From Brachyspira murdochii DSM 12563 (GTDB lineage: Bacteria > Spirochaetota > Brachyspiria > Brachyspirales > Brachyspiraceae): a stretch of DNA of 64,000 nucleotides. The first letter of the stretch is position 1, and the number at the start of each line of letters is the position of its first letter. Below, in pieces: positions 248-5,590 of this stretch. Below the pieces are notes generated by a model, which made no database searches, was not told where the DNA came from, and was given only the letters and a program-made list of their open reading frames with translations. Made by a program: the position numbers and the translations under genes. The stretch lies in the NCBI RefSeq assembly GCF_000092845.1, contig NC_014150.1:2603510-2667509 (forward strand), given 5' to 3'.

Positions 248-1996
248 ATGATTAATAAAAGGCTTATTGCTTTGATGGGATATGCCAAAAAATATATAGC
301 TTGGCATGTTATAATACAGCTTGTTAATCTGGCACTTAATATAACAGCCGTATTTTTTATGGCTGATATTATACAAAAGGCTTCTAATGGAAATATAACA
401 AAAGAAGATATTATAAAGTTATGCATAGCTATTTTTGTAATAATAGTATTAAGATTCAGATTTACTGTTTTAATGTCAAAAATGTCATACTATGCTTCTG
501 GAAGAGTTAAGCAGACTTTAATAGAAAAAATATATTCAAAACTACTCACACTTGGAAGCAGATATAAAGAAAAATTTTCTACAAGCGAAATAGTGCAAAT
601 ATCTATGGAGGGAGTTGATCAGTTAGAAACTTATTTTGGAAGATATTTGCCTCAGTTTTTTTATAGTATGATAGCTCCTATAGTGCTTTTTGCTGTGCTT
701 TCTACTATAAGTATAAAGTCAGCTGTTATACTTTTAATATGTGTTCCTCTAATACCTATATCAATTATTGCTATAGTAAAAATTGCTAAAAGAATACTAA
801 AAAAATATTGGGGAAGCTACAGCGATTTGGGAGAGATGTTTTTAGAAGATGTACAGGGACTTACTACTTTAAAAATATATAAAGCTGATGAAAATAAGAA
901 TAAAGAGATGAATATAGAAGCTGAAAAGTTTAGAATTGCTACTATGAATCTTTTATTTATGCAGCTTAATTCTACAACTATAATGGATATAATAGCATAT
1001 GGCGGTGCTGCTTTGGGAGTTATAATTTCTGTACTTGAATATATGAAAGGAAATATTAATATTGCCGGCACATTTACTATAATAATGCTTTCTGCCGAGT
1101 TTTTTATTCCATTAAGACTTTTAGGTTCATTCTTTCACATTGCTATGAATGGAATATCTGCAAGCGATAAGATGTTTGAAATACTTGATATGAAAGATGA
1201 TGATAAAAGAGTAAATAAAATTAATAAAAATAATGAAGAGATTACTTTTAAAGATGTTAGTTTTGCATACAATGAAGATAAAACTATATTAAAAGATATT
1301 AATATGACTATAAAAGAAAAATCATTTGTTTCTATAGTTGGTATTTCAGGTTCTGGAAAAAGCACTATTGCTGGGATTATATCATTAAGAAATGAAAATT
1401 ATAAAGGCTCTGTTAAGATTGGAGATATAGAAATTTCTACGATAGATAAAGATGATTTATACAAAAGAATAGTTGTAGTTGATCATAACAGTTATTTATT
1501 TGAAGGCACTGTATATGATAATTTAAAAATGGCTGGAGATAATATAACAGAAAATCAGATGAATGAGGTATTAAAAAAAGTTGAGCTTTATGATTTTTTA
1601 CAGTCTGAAGACGGACTTAATACAAAGATAATGGAAAAGGCTGCAAATTTATCTGGAGGACAGAAACAGAGATTGGCATTAGCAAGGGCTATACTTCTTA
1701 AAGGGGACATATATATATTTGATGAAGCTACTTCTAATGTTGATGTTGAAAGTGAAGAGAGTATTATGAAAGTGATAAGAGATATTGCCAAAGAAAAAAC
1801 TGTTATATTAATATCTCATAGGCTTTATAACTCTATGCTTTCAGATAAAATATACTTCTTAAAAGACGGAGTGATAAAAGAAGAAGGTACACATAATGAG
1901 TTAATGAATATAAATGGAGAGTATGCTAAAGTTTTTAATGAGCAGACCAATTTAGAGAGCATAACAAAAGGAGATAGTTTAAGAATAGCTATATAA
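248..1996 (+). CDS. ABC exporter half-transporter, fused permease and ATPase
   Basis: This 582-residue protein has an N-terminal block of about six membrane helices (residues 1-300) followed by a nucleotide-binding domain. The Walker A motif GISGSGKST lies near residue 365, the signature LSGGQKQR near 467, and Walker B with catalytic Glu (IFDEATSNVD) near 490, so the ATPase site looks intact. The length is typical of bacterial ABC half-exporters. The start at 248 has an AAAGGA ribosome site at a good distance. The next gene encodes a second half-transporter, so the two probably form a heterodimer, as in CydDC-like or multidrug exporters. The substrate cannot be read from the sequence; the architecture resembles CydD, but I would not assign that function. 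Confidence 0.88.
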   Translation: MINKRLIALMGYAKKYIAWHVIIQLVNLALNITAVFFMADIIQKASNGNITKEDIIKLCIAIFVIIVLRFRFTVLMSKMSYYASGRVKQTLIEKIYSKLLTLGSRYKEKFSTSEIVQISMEGVDQLETYFGRYLPQFFYSMIAPIVLFAVLSTISIKSAVILLICVPLIPISIIAIVKIAKRILKKYWGSYSDLGEMFLEDVQGLTTLKIYKADENKNKEMNIEAEKFRIATMNLLFMQLNSTTIMDIIAYGGAALGVIISVLEYMKGNINIAGTFTIIMLSAEFFIPLRLLGSFFHIAMNGISASDKMFEILDMKDDDKRVNKINKNNEEITFKDVSFAYNEDKTILKDINMTIKEKSFVSIVGISGSGKSTIAGIISLRNENYKGSVKIGDIEISTIDKDDLYKRIVVVDHNSYLFEGTVYDNLKMAGDNITENQMNEVLKKVELYDFLQSEDGLNTKIMEKAANLSGGQKQRLALARAILLKGDIYIFDEATSNVDVESEESIMKVIRDIAKEKTVILISHRLYNSMLSDKIYFLKDGVIKEEGTHNELMNINGEYAKVFNEQTNLESITKGDSLRIAI

Positions 1997-2318
1997 AATA
2001 AATATATACTAAAAATTTTTAAATTTGTAATTTTTTTATTGTTCTTTTTCCCGCCGCAAAAAGAACCAAAAAGTGCAAATCTAAAAGTAATGCTAAATAG
2101 TACTAATTATGTTTTACATGTAGAATAAATTATTAAATTTAGCCTGAAATATAGCCTTTCGCTACTGCGGGCTGTGCCTGCTTCTTTGTGGCAACAAAAG
2201 AAGTGGGGGTGTGGGGGCTAGTCCCCACAAATATAAATAAAATTAATTTTTAAACAAGTCTAGTAATTATAAAAAGAAAAACAACTTTAAAATTTTATAT
2301 AACAAAGGAGTTTATAAA
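1997..2318. repeat. Dispersed non-coding repeat between two ABC half-transporter genes
   Basis: This 322-bp gap has no convincing gene. It contains pieces that recur elsewhere in the window. At 2003-2031 the minus strand carries a copy of the promoter-like 29-mer, followed by the block GGCGGGAAAAAGAACAAT, which is found in the same order on the plus strand at 15038-15065. AAAGAACCAAAAAG at about 2063 recurs near 15180. A hairpin with arms of the CTTCTTTTGT/ACAAAGAAG type at about 2180-2205 has relatives at about 14990 and 15165. The GC-rich islands stand out from the AT-rich background. The repeat sits between two genes that probably encode partners of one transporter, so it may have entered an older operon. 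Confidence 0.7.
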
Positions 2319-3977
2319 ATGAGAAGAAGCGGTATAAAAATTATGGCGGAATTAATAGGCTTAATAACTCCGCTTATACATGTTATGATACTTGCAATAA
2401 CTACAGGAGTTCTAGGTTTTTTATGTGCCATATCAATAACTATATTCGGCGGATATGCCATATTAACGTATTTAGGATTAAATAATTTGTTTACTATAAA
2501 AACTATATTTATAATAGTTTTGGTGCTTGCTGTTTTAAGAGGGGTACTTCACTATATAGAACAGCTGAGCAATCACTTTATAGCTTTTAAACTACTTGCT
2601 TTAATAAGAGATAAAGTTTTTAAGGCTTTAAGAAAATTATCCCCTGCCAAACTTGAAGGAAGAGATAAAGGAAATTTAATAGCTCTTATTACAAGCGATA
2701 TTGAACTTCTTGAAGTGTTTTATGCACATACTATTTCACCTATAGCAATAGGAGTATTAACTTCAATTATTATGACAATTTTTATAGGAAGTTTTAATAT
2801 TATATTAGGAGTTATAGCATTATTAGGATATATCACTATAGGTTTTATAATACCTTATTTTTCATCAAGGTTTGGGAAAAATGACGGAATGTCTTACAGA
2901 GATGATTTTGGTAAATTAAACAGTTATTTTCTTGATAGTTTATGGGGTATAAAAGAGGTACTGCAATTTGGATACGGAGATAAAAGAGCAAAAAATATAG
3001 AAACAAAGACTGACAGTTTAATGCATATCAATGAAAAGCTAAAAAAATATGAAGGTTTTATATCTGCAATTACAACTTCTGCTGTAACATTATTTACATT
3101 TGCTGTACTCGTTGTAAGTATTATACTTTCAAAAGATGTAAAAAATAATTTCGCTAATATTATAATACCTACAATAGCAATGGCTAGTTCATTCGGACCT
3201 GTTATAGCACTTAGCAATTTATCAAATAATTTGTTTATGACCTTAGCAAGCGGAGAGAGAGTATTAAACTTGCTTAAAGAAAAGCCTATTATTGAAGAAG
3301 TTTATAATGGAGAGAAAGATTTAGAGTTTAAAGGCTTGGAATGTAAAGATATATATTTTGACTATGAAGGCGAAGAGATATTAAATGATTATAATTTAGA
3401 AATAGAGACTAATAAGATAATAGGAATAAGCGGAAAAAGCGGAAGCGGAAAGTCTACTCTTTTAAAACTATTTATGCGTTTTTGGGATATAAAAAAGGGA
3501 AGTCTACAAATATCATCTAAAGATATAAAAGATATAAATACCGATTCTCTTCGTGATATGGAAAGCTATGTAACACAGGAGACTTCTATTTTTAAAGATA
3601 CTATAGAAAATAATATAAAAATAGCAAATCAAAATGCCTCAAGAGAAGATGTTATAGAAGCATGTAAAAAAGCCTCACTCCATGATTTTATTATGACTTT
3701 GCCTAAAGGATATGATACTAATGTAGGCGAGCTTGGAGATACTTTATCAGGCGGAGAAAAGCAGCGTATAGGAATAGCTAGAAGTTTTTTACATAATGCT
3801 CCTTTTATACTTCTTGATGAGCCTACAAGCAATTTAGATAGTTTGAATGAGGCTGTTATATTAAAATCAATAAAAGAAAACAGCGTTAACAGAACAGTTG
3901 TTTTAGTTTCACATAGACTTTCTACACTTAATATAGCAGATAAAGTTTATAAGATGAAAGAAGACAGGGTTAGTTAG
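2319..3977 (+). CDS. ABC exporter half-transporter, second subunit
   Basis: The 552-residue product has about six N-terminal membrane helices (residues 1-300) and a C-terminal nucleotide-binding domain. It has Walker A GKSGSGKST near residue 369, the signature LSGGEKQR near 477 and Walker B LLDEPTSNLD near 498. A strong AAAGGAG ribosome site precedes the ATG at 2319. The catalytic Glu and the signature are both canonical, as in the upstream half-transporter, so both sites of a heterodimer could be active. The gene is close in size and orientation to the gene at 248-1996 and probably its partner, although the repeat-filled gap means it may have its own promoter. CydC-like architecture; the exported substrate is unknown. 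Confidence 0.88.
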   Translation: MRRSGIKIMAELIGLITPLIHVMILAITTGVLGFLCAISITIFGGYAILTYLGLNNLFTIKTIFIIVLVLAVLRGVLHYIEQLSNHFIAFKLLALIRDKVFKALRKLSPAKLEGRDKGNLIALITSDIELLEVFYAHTISPIAIGVLTSIIMTIFIGSFNIILGVIALLGYITIGFIIPYFSSRFGKNDGMSYRDDFGKLNSYFLDSLWGIKEVLQFGYGDKRAKNIETKTDSLMHINEKLKKYEGFISAITTSAVTLFTFAVLVVSIILSKDVKNNFANIIIPTIAMASSFGPVIALSNLSNNLFMTLASGERVLNLLKEKPIIEEVYNGEKDLEFKGLECKDIYFDYEGEEILNDYNLEIETNKIIGISGKSGSGKSTLLKLFMRFWDIKKGSLQISSKDIKDINTDSLRDMESYVTQETSIFKDTIENNIKIANQNASREDVIEACKKASLHDFIMTLPKGYDTNVGELGDTLSGGEKQRIGIARSFLHNAPFILLDEPTSNLDSLNEAVILKSIKENSVNRTVVLVSHRLSTLNIADKVYKMKEDRVS

Positions 3978-4062: not shown

Positions 4063-5442
4063 TCACATATTTAAATATTTTCTTTCTGTTTCATAAGCAA
4101 GTTTATATATTTTCTCTTCATCAATGGAAGTAAGTTTTCCTTTTTCTGAAACGACTTTTCCATTAACTATAGTATAATCAACAGTATTCTTCCAGCCTAT
4201 AGTGCATAATATAGATTTAGAATCAAAATCAGCACCTACCATTTCCAAACGCCTCATATCTATCATGAATAAATCTCCAGCTTTTCCTACTTCCAAACTT
4301 CCTATATCATCACGTCCTAAAACTTCGGCACCGCCTTTTGTAGCCATTTTTAATATATCATAAGCACTAGGAGCATTATTACTTGAATTAAGTCTGTGAA
4401 GAAGATAGCATACTCTCATCTCTTCTAACATATTAGATCCGTCATTACTTGCACTGCCGTCAACAGCCAAACTTACAGGCACACCTAATTTTAACATCTC
4501 TGGTATATTGCATACTCCAGAACTTAATTTCATGTTGGATATAGGACAATGTGCTACTCCAGTTTTTGTATCAGCTAAAAATTTTAATTCCTTTTCATTA
4601 AAATGAATACCATGTGCATACCAAACATCATTACCCACCCAGCCTAAAGATTCCATATATTCCAAAGGACGCATATTAAATTTTTCTTTTACATACACTT
4701 CTTCATCTTTAGTTTCGCATAAATGAGTATGAAGCCTTACTTTCAAATCTCTTGCTAGAATAGCAGATTGTTTTAATAATTCTTCGCTTACATTAAAAGG
4801 TGCACAAGGAGCTAATGCCACCATATTCATAGAGTATTTTGAATTGTCATGATACTTTTCAACTACTCTTTGGCAGTCTTTCAAAATTACATCTAATGGC
4901 TGTACTACAGAATCTGGGGGAAGTCCGCCGTCTTTTTTGCTCAAATCCATACTTCCTCTTGAAGCATACATTCTTATACCCAAATCTTTAGCTGCTCTAA
5001 ACTGAGAATCTATTATTCCTTCAGCATTATTATTTGGAAATAAGTAATGATGATCAAAACAAGTTGTACATCCTGTTTTTAAAAGCTCTCCCATAGCAGT
5101 AATAGAACTGTAATATACTACTTCACTATTTAAATTTTTCCAAATTTCATACAGATTGGTAAGCCATTCAAATAATTCCATATTCTGAACCTGAGGCAAA
5201 TTTCTGCTGAATATTTGAAATAAATGATGATGAGTATTAATAAGCCCCGGATATACAAAATAACCTGAAGCATCAATAACCCTGTCTGCATTTTTTTCTT
5301 TTATTAATGTTTCCTTTTCTGCCATTTCTCCTATATATGTTATAACTCCGTTTTCTATTAGTATATTAGCTGAGTTATAAACAGCATCATTTTCCGAACA
5401 GGTAACTATAGAAGAAGCGTTTTTGATAAAAAGACTAGACAT
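4063..5442 (-). CDS. 8-oxoguanine deaminase-like amidohydrolase
   Basis: The 459-residue protein is a member of the metal-dependent amidohydrolase superfamily (cytosine deaminase/TRZ type). Visible landmarks are the metal-binding HxH in INTHHHLFQ (residues 68-76), LHTHLCE, a YAHGIH block, AHCPISNMKLSSG, and the catalytic Asp block AVDGSASNDGSN. The run after HHH (about residues 74-101: LFQ..SRNLP..Q...LFEWL..LYEIW) is, from memory, characteristic of the subgroup that contains 8-oxoguanine deaminase, which converts 8-oxoguanine to uric acid and ammonia. Related guanine or s-triazine deaminases are the main alternatives. The ATG at 5442 has a GGAGGT ribosome site. Upstream are a consensus promoter and a guanine-class riboswitch, which independently point to a purine substrate. 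Confidence 0.8.
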   Translation of the reverse strand: MSSLFIKNASSIVTCSENDAVYNSANILIENGVITYIGEMAEKETLIKEKNADRVIDASGYFVYPGLINTHHHLFQIFSRNLPQVQNMELFEWLTNLYEIWKNLNSEVVYYSSITAMGELLKTGCTTCFDHHYLFPNNNAEGIIDSQFRAAKDLGIRMYASRGSMDLSKKDGGLPPDSVVQPLDVILKDCQRVVEKYHDNSKYSMNMVALAPCAPFNVSEELLKQSAILARDLKVRLHTHLCETKDEEVYVKEKFNMRPLEYMESLGWVGNDVWYAHGIHFNEKELKFLADTKTGVAHCPISNMKLSSGVCNIPEMLKLGVPVSLAVDGSASNDGSNMLEEMRVCYLLHRLNSSNNAPSAYDILKMATKGGAEVLGRDDIGSLEVGKAGDLFMIDMRRLEMVGADFDSKSILCTIGWKNTVDYTIVNGKVVSEKGKLTSIDEEKIYKLAYETERKYLNM

Positions 5443-5479
5443 ATATTATACCTCCGTTAACTAAAAAATAAGGCAAAAA

Positions 5480-5542
5480 ACTTATAGTCAATTATTGAGG
5501 TAATTGGTAGAAACGTTCAGCCTATTATGAACTTATATAAGT
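5480..5542 (-). ncRNA. Purine riboswitch aptamer, guanine class (leader of the deaminase gene)
   Basis: Read on the minus strand, 63 nt fold as the three-way junction of a purine riboswitch. P1 pairs ACTTATA (5542-5536) with TATAAGT (5486-5480). J1/2 is TAA. P2 is GTTCA/TGAAC with loop TAATAGGC, which holds the GG needed for the loop-loop kiss. J2/3 is the hallmark GTTTCTACC. P3 is AATTA/TAATT with loop CCTCAA, which supplies the CC partners. J3/1 is GACTA. The ligand-specifying base (position 74 in the xpt numbering) is C, and the pocket uridines 22, 47 and 51 are present, so guanine or a close relative is the predicted ligand. The P2 hairpin has the same 18-nt length as in xpt. L3 differs from the usual CCNUAAA. 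Confidence 0.88.
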
Positions 5543-5562
5543 AAATAAATCGCCTAAAGAGA

Positions 5563-5590
5563 ATTATAAAGTATTTTAATTTTATGTCAA
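5563..5590 (-). promoter_or_regulatory. Consensus sigma-70 promoter of the riboswitch-deaminase transcript
   Basis: On the minus strand there is a perfect TTGACA (5590-5585), a 16-bp spacer, and a perfect TATAAT (5568-5563). Initiation about 7 nt downstream would put the start near 5556, leaving a short lead before the aptamer P1 stem at 5542. The expression decision would therefore rest mainly on the riboswitch. Confidence 0.82.

Follow-up and report, generated by a model that had tools for sequence, protein, structure and literature searches.

In the adenine-responsive ON switches of pbuE and add, the ligand-free state uses strands of the aptamer itself for a terminator or for masking of the ribosome site. 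The 8-oxoguanine riboswitch of Paenibacillaceae, which Hamal Dhakal is said to have described in 2023, is reportedly linked to 8-oxoguanine deaminase genes and reportedly also acts as an ON switch. A third system, the guanine-I riboswitch of the xpt type (RF00167), has partner genes of biosynthesis, salvage or transport. We have analysed a window of 64,000 nucleotides, meaning the whole stretch of DNA under study, from the chromosome of the gut spirochaete Brachyspira murdochii DSM 12563, and observed a leader which can be compared with each of these systems. With the guanine-I riboswitch it shares the three-stem junction, all the junction bases, C74 and the GG/CC kissing-loop bases, the differences being that its loops L2 and L3 are one base short, that it is predicted to be an ON switch acting on translation, and that its partner gene encodes a deaminase. 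Like pbuE and add it is predicted to use aptamer strands in the ligand-free state, although those switches have U74 and bind adenine, whereas the window's aptamer has C74. In respect to the Paenibacillaceae riboswitch as reported, the scaffold, the downstream enzyme family and a likely ON direction are the same, whereas the pocket in the window is unaltered and the phylum is a different one.

The RNA belongs to the guanine-I class, a known kind of riboswitch and not a new one; its partner gene is uncommon and its platform is probably of the ON type. Our main reading, to which we assign a probability of roughly 0.6, is that this guanine-class riboswitch turns on a catabolic deaminase that feeds purine breakdown. 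This would add a purine catabolic gene to those under a canonical guanine aptamer, with the aptamer predicted to act as an ON element.

Aptamer, promoter and deaminase gene

A covariance model search of the window resulted in a full-length match to the Rfam purine riboswitch RF00167 at positions 5465–5560 of the minus strand (50.3 bits, E 1.5e-5, for a gathering cut-off of 37 bits), which in a search of the whole 3.24-Mb genome is the sole match to this model (E 1.9e-7). The aptamer core of 63 nt, supported by this match and by covariation on 10 sequences, spans 5480–5542 on the minus strand, where all the elements of the leader given below also lie, and comprises P1 (5536–5542 with 5480–5486), P2/L2 (5515–5532), J2/3 (5506–5514) and P3/L3 (5489–5506). 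The junctions J1/2 (UAUAA), J2/3 (GUUUCUACC) and J3/1 (GACUA) match the consensus, and the pocket of the guanine consensus is complete, with U22, U47, U51, C74 and the other junction bases in place. The first-pass annotation of this DNA had described, from the letters alone, a purine aptamer with these junction hallmarks, with C74 and with canonical pocket bases, and had proposed a covariance-model search as a check; the search and the inspection of the pocket bear out this description, down to the exact coordinates.

The stems P1, P2 and P3 covary over the 10 sequences, as inferred from the pairing of 99.4% of the cells and from five pairs with both sides changed, a result that none of 500 shuffles equalled and that compares with 23–36% paired in slid controls. 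The two loops are 6 nt long and not 7: L3 is CCUCAA, one base under the consensus CCGUAAA, and L2 is AAUAGG, likewise one base short, and the kissing-loop bases, GG in L2 and CC in L3, are present in all aligned rows. Other classes built on this scaffold were considered and rejected. An adenine riboswitch requires U74, and the xanthine-II and guanine-II variants are characterized by J2/3 insertions, plus U51G in the case of xanthine-II (PMC9295807), whereas J2/3 of the window has no insertion and U51 is retained.

The aptamer is preceded by a promoter at 5563–5590, composed of a −35 element TTGACA (5585–5590) and a −10 element TATAAT (5563–5568) with a spacer of 16 nt. The match is exact, as had been annotated, and there are just two such perfect promoters in the 64-kb window; other Brachyspira leaders keep TTGACA and a −10 element that reads TATAAT or TATACT. 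On the other side, 37 nt separate the aptamer from a gene at 4063–5442 (minus strand, start codon ATG at 5440–5442 in the list of open reading frames) for an amidohydrolase of 459 aa. Its product had been likened to 8-oxoguanine deaminase, and in agreement with this it scores 568.2 bits on the NCBIfam model NF006055 ‘8-oxoguanine deaminase’ (cut-off 532), the best relatives in the structural database being PDB 3hpa and 7ww2. Alignment with these two structures evidences the motifs HHHLFQ (71–76), APC (211–213), HTHLCE (238–243), AHGIHF (276–281) and VDGSASND (327–334), and the metal and catalytic residues of the NF006055 family are present together with the active-site Cys. The family score above cut-off and the His-x-His, His/Glu, His and Asp motifs are thus common to this enzyme and to the 8-oxoguanine deaminase Pa0142, whereas identity to plasmid-borne proteobacterial members of NF006055 is ∼44%; a plasmid search with the deaminase returned mainly proteobacterial relatives. 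An assignment to the guanine deaminases was rejected, as the enzyme scores 162 bits on TIGR02967 against a cut-off of 375. Enzymes of the 8-oxoguanine deaminase group can also convert guanine to xanthine (PMC6186785); some related enzymes are weak on guanine, with a kcat/KM of at most 2.2e3, and neighbouring enzymes differ in substrate (PMC13054789). Convergent with the deaminase gene, at 248–3977 on the plus strand, lie genes for two ABC exporters that resemble CydD and CydC and score under the equivalog cut-offs.

Distribution and relatives

The deaminase gene occurs in 17 of 26 Brachyspira genomes, at 84–100% identity, and the aptamer is found in 16 of these 17 versus none of the 9 genomes without an intact gene (p 3.2e-6, a value that ignores kinship), being located directly 5' of the gene in most aptamer-bearing genomes. 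One genome has the gene without the aptamer (G167), another a decayed gene fragment and no aptamer (G136), and a third has two deaminase genes in tandem with an aptamer before each (G113; L053 1380–1477 and 3047–3142). Promoter, stems and loops are conserved across the Brachyspira leaders, with compensatory changes in P1–P3, and the junction bases are invariant with a single exception, G113a, the first aptamer of the tandem pair, in which J2/3 has lost one base (GCUCUACC). In B. pilosicoli G103 one contig carries the aptamer together with the first codons of the gene and another contig the remainder (L030, L046), which suggests an insertion close to the gene start.

The same arrangement is found outside the spirochaetes, since Blautia caecimuris (Lachnospiraceae) has an enzyme with 71% identity, and the aptamer that precedes its gene has loops as short as those in Brachyspira. 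A maximum-likelihood tree shows the Brachyspira enzymes as monophyletic (100/100) and sister to the enzyme of B. caecimuris plus one further Lachnospiraceae sequence, the leader of which is lost to a contig end (97/93), and this whole group is nested among Lachnospiraceae. The nesting in the tree and the presence of the same aptamer–gene pair in B. caecimuris suggest a probable joint transfer of the gene and its aptamer into Brachyspira from a Lachnospiraceae-like donor, a gut Firmicute. The spirochaete host pointed out in the first-pass annotation is thus confirmed, but the combination of aptamer and gene did not arise as an innovation of spirochaetes; a literature search, which stopped short of the original 8-oxoguanine riboswitch paper, found no guanine-class aptamer with an 8-oxoguanine deaminase gene in a spirochaete. 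The pairing is rare, as the aptamer is absent from ∼55 other Firmicutes deaminase loci, a set that includes a phylum-wide sample around Blautia and for which mostly ∼1.5 kb of flank was examined.

With a covariance model built from these aptamers, relatives were detected in 79 of 392 Lachnospirales genomes. Among the best 30 loci, 19 stand before genes which, on inspection of the translations, are guanine-deaminase-like, 7 before a gene for an FAD-dependent oxidoreductase and 1 before a purine permease gene, with 3 unparsed; the two of these guanine-deaminase-like proteins that were scanned reach 346 and 367 bits on TIGR02967, slightly below its cut-off. Many Lachnospirales aptamers have L2 and L3 of 6 nt, which indicates that the short loops are a trait of a larger group: the L3 that had been singled out as unusual does depart from the consensus, but is common among these relatives. 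In addition to the 6-nt loops, the guanine-deaminase-linked aptamers share with the window's aptamer a similar P3 sequence and platform strands taken from P3/L3. They differ from it in the gene that follows and in the base before C74, which is often C or U there and A in the window. Those of the guanine-deaminase-linked aptamers with C or U at this position (GCCUA or GUCUA; L115–L125 and L138) possibly form a variant group. The aptamers before the oxidoreductase gene (L126, L127, L128, L136, L137, L140 and L142) have terminator-like hairpins made from P3/L3, and a scan of one of the oxidoreductases against NCBIfam gave no hit with an E value up to 1e-30.

Among spirochaetes, purine aptamers above the cut-off were found in 44 of 393 genomes, and those elsewhere in the phylum precede, by inspection, purE/purK-, purC-, purL-, xpt- and permease-like genes. 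In two cases read from one spirochaete group (f49/g120; L021, L029) the aptamer stands directly before a gene that, by inspection, is guanine-deaminase-like, and G replaces the A before C74. Another spirochaete aptamer (G041; L002 1518–1586) passed the 2'-deoxyguanosine-II model RF03165 with 62.4 bits for a cut-off of 60, and has a C74 pocket that is guanine-like in look and a purL-like gene downstream.

Direction of the switch

Folding of the B. caecimuris leader gives a terminator (−31.6 kcal/mol, z −6.9) that has L3 and the 3' strand of P3 as its 5' arm and is followed by U6. Since ligand binding must break this L3/P3 terminator, the Blautia leader should be an ON switch, and a terminator-like 5' arm inside the aptamer is also found in 15 of 25 related leaders. 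In the minimum-free-energy fold of the free Brachyspira leader, from which this terminator has disappeared, UACCUC of P3/L3 (5497–5502) pairs with GAGGUA of the Shine–Dalgarno region (5449–5454, located from sequence and folds), the 3' strand of P3 pairs just before the Shine–Dalgarno sequence, and the 3' strand of P1 is engaged in a hairpin. The resulting OFF helix has a z of −2.7, with 4 of 200 shuffles as good. For seven main-clade leaders, opening of the Shine–Dalgarno sequence is 1.5–4.4 kcal/mol dearer without the aptamer, a difference that shuffled spacers equal in 2–72 of 300 cases, and for the divergent leaders G058 and G113a the opening cost has no excess over shuffles. Covariation of the Shine–Dalgarno helix was looked for in the aligned leaders and not found, which can be understood from the fact that its aptamer side is frozen. 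A hairpin with a U-run at 5463–5485 (AUAAG-CUUAU), which in the folds is mutually exclusive with P1, was considered as a transcription terminator of the Brachyspira leader and rejected. All 8 aligned leaders retain its strands, but its U-run, missing in G113b, is not conserved, so that a terminator at this site is unlikely.

On these folds the Brachyspira switch is probably an ON switch. The case for a ligand-free structure that shuts off expression and is incompatible with the aptamer is strong in Blautia, moderate in the main Brachyspira clade and absent in G058 and G113a. In the ligand-free RNA, UACCUC would pair with the Shine–Dalgarno sequence and the 3' strands of P3 and P1 would pair with the leader just upstream, so as to block translation; upon binding of guanine (or hypoxanthine), P1 and P3 would form, the masking helix would be broken and the ribosome site would become free. 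The locus looks like a riboswitch that moved between phyla with its gene and was then rewired, its platform having presumably changed after the transfer from transcription control by a terminator to translation control at the ribosome site.

The opposite direction, in which guanine binding lowers the production of the deaminase, would be in line with the common behaviour of guanine riboswitches, which lower expression in the presence of abundant guanine (PMC9295807), and the energy differences on which the ON model is based are modest. However, in the folds of the Brachyspira leader neither a terminator nor a strong masking helix was found that could coexist with the bound aptamer, the Blautia terminator and the terminator-like arms of the related leaders are made from aptamer strands, which for Blautia means disruption by the ligand, and there would be little sense in silencing a catabolic enzyme at times of abundant substrate. 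We thus regard an OFF switch as unlikely.

Ligand and purine breakdown

The sequence of the pocket makes guanine the likely ligand, with hypoxanthine as a possible one, given that guanine-I pockets discriminate only ∼10-fold. This limited discrimination, which applies to hypoxanthine and xanthine (PMC9295807), also speaks for a general oxopurine sensor that would report total salvageable purine, guanine being one ligand only. We consider such a sensor quite unlikely, as there is no hypoxanthine-specific gene downstream and the enzyme would remove an exocyclic amino group that is absent from hypoxanthine. Still less probable is that the RNA senses 8-oxoguanine despite its canonical pocket, by means of the short loops or of the context, and induces removal of this compound. 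The gene downstream does belong to the 8-oxoguanine deaminase family, and a variant of the guanine scaffold that senses 8-oxoguanine is known (PMC9295807; PMC11625349). Nevertheless, all the pocket bases are canonical, the guanine-deaminase-linked aptamers carry the same loops, and the known variants, according to PMC11625349, carry mutations in those bases of the guanine scaffold that are key to ligand recognition; set against this published description, the window's aptamer has no such mutations. An independent solution to 8-oxoguanine sensing, raised in the first-pass annotation and amounting to a second evolution of this specificity with an unaltered pocket through shortened kissing loops or the platform, is highly improbable for the same reasons, the closest aptamer relatives being those that control guanine-deaminase-like genes.

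Most likely, then, the RNA does not sense DNA damage but induces the enzyme when guanine is abundant. The assignment of the enzyme to the 8-oxoguanine deaminase family rather than to guanine deaminase counts against this catabolic ON reading, as does the weak activity of related enzymes on guanine; on the other hand, no guanine deaminase over the cut-off was found in 29 Brachyspiraceae genomes. The B. murdochii genome (G000, C1:2998000–3017500) encodes YgeW, YgeX, YgeY, carbamate kinase, SsnA, YgfK and a selenium-type xanthine dehydrogenase, a set known from anaerobic purine degradation. SsnA is present in 17 of 17 Brachyspira genomes with the deaminase versus 2 of 9 without it, and a homologous gene from a related genus (G140) is located 3' of a xanthine-permease-like gene. 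These observations and the enzyme family are consistent with a guanine-induced enzyme at the entry to purine breakdown: it would deaminate guanine and/or 8-oxoguanine to xanthine/urate, and these products would pass to the enzymes of anaerobic purine degradation, whose genes lie elsewhere in the genome. We suggest in this way that, in Brachyspira, an enzyme annotated as 8-oxoguanine deaminase may be the point at which guanine enters anaerobic purine breakdown. The purine-degradation cluster in the window's genome is complete-looking.
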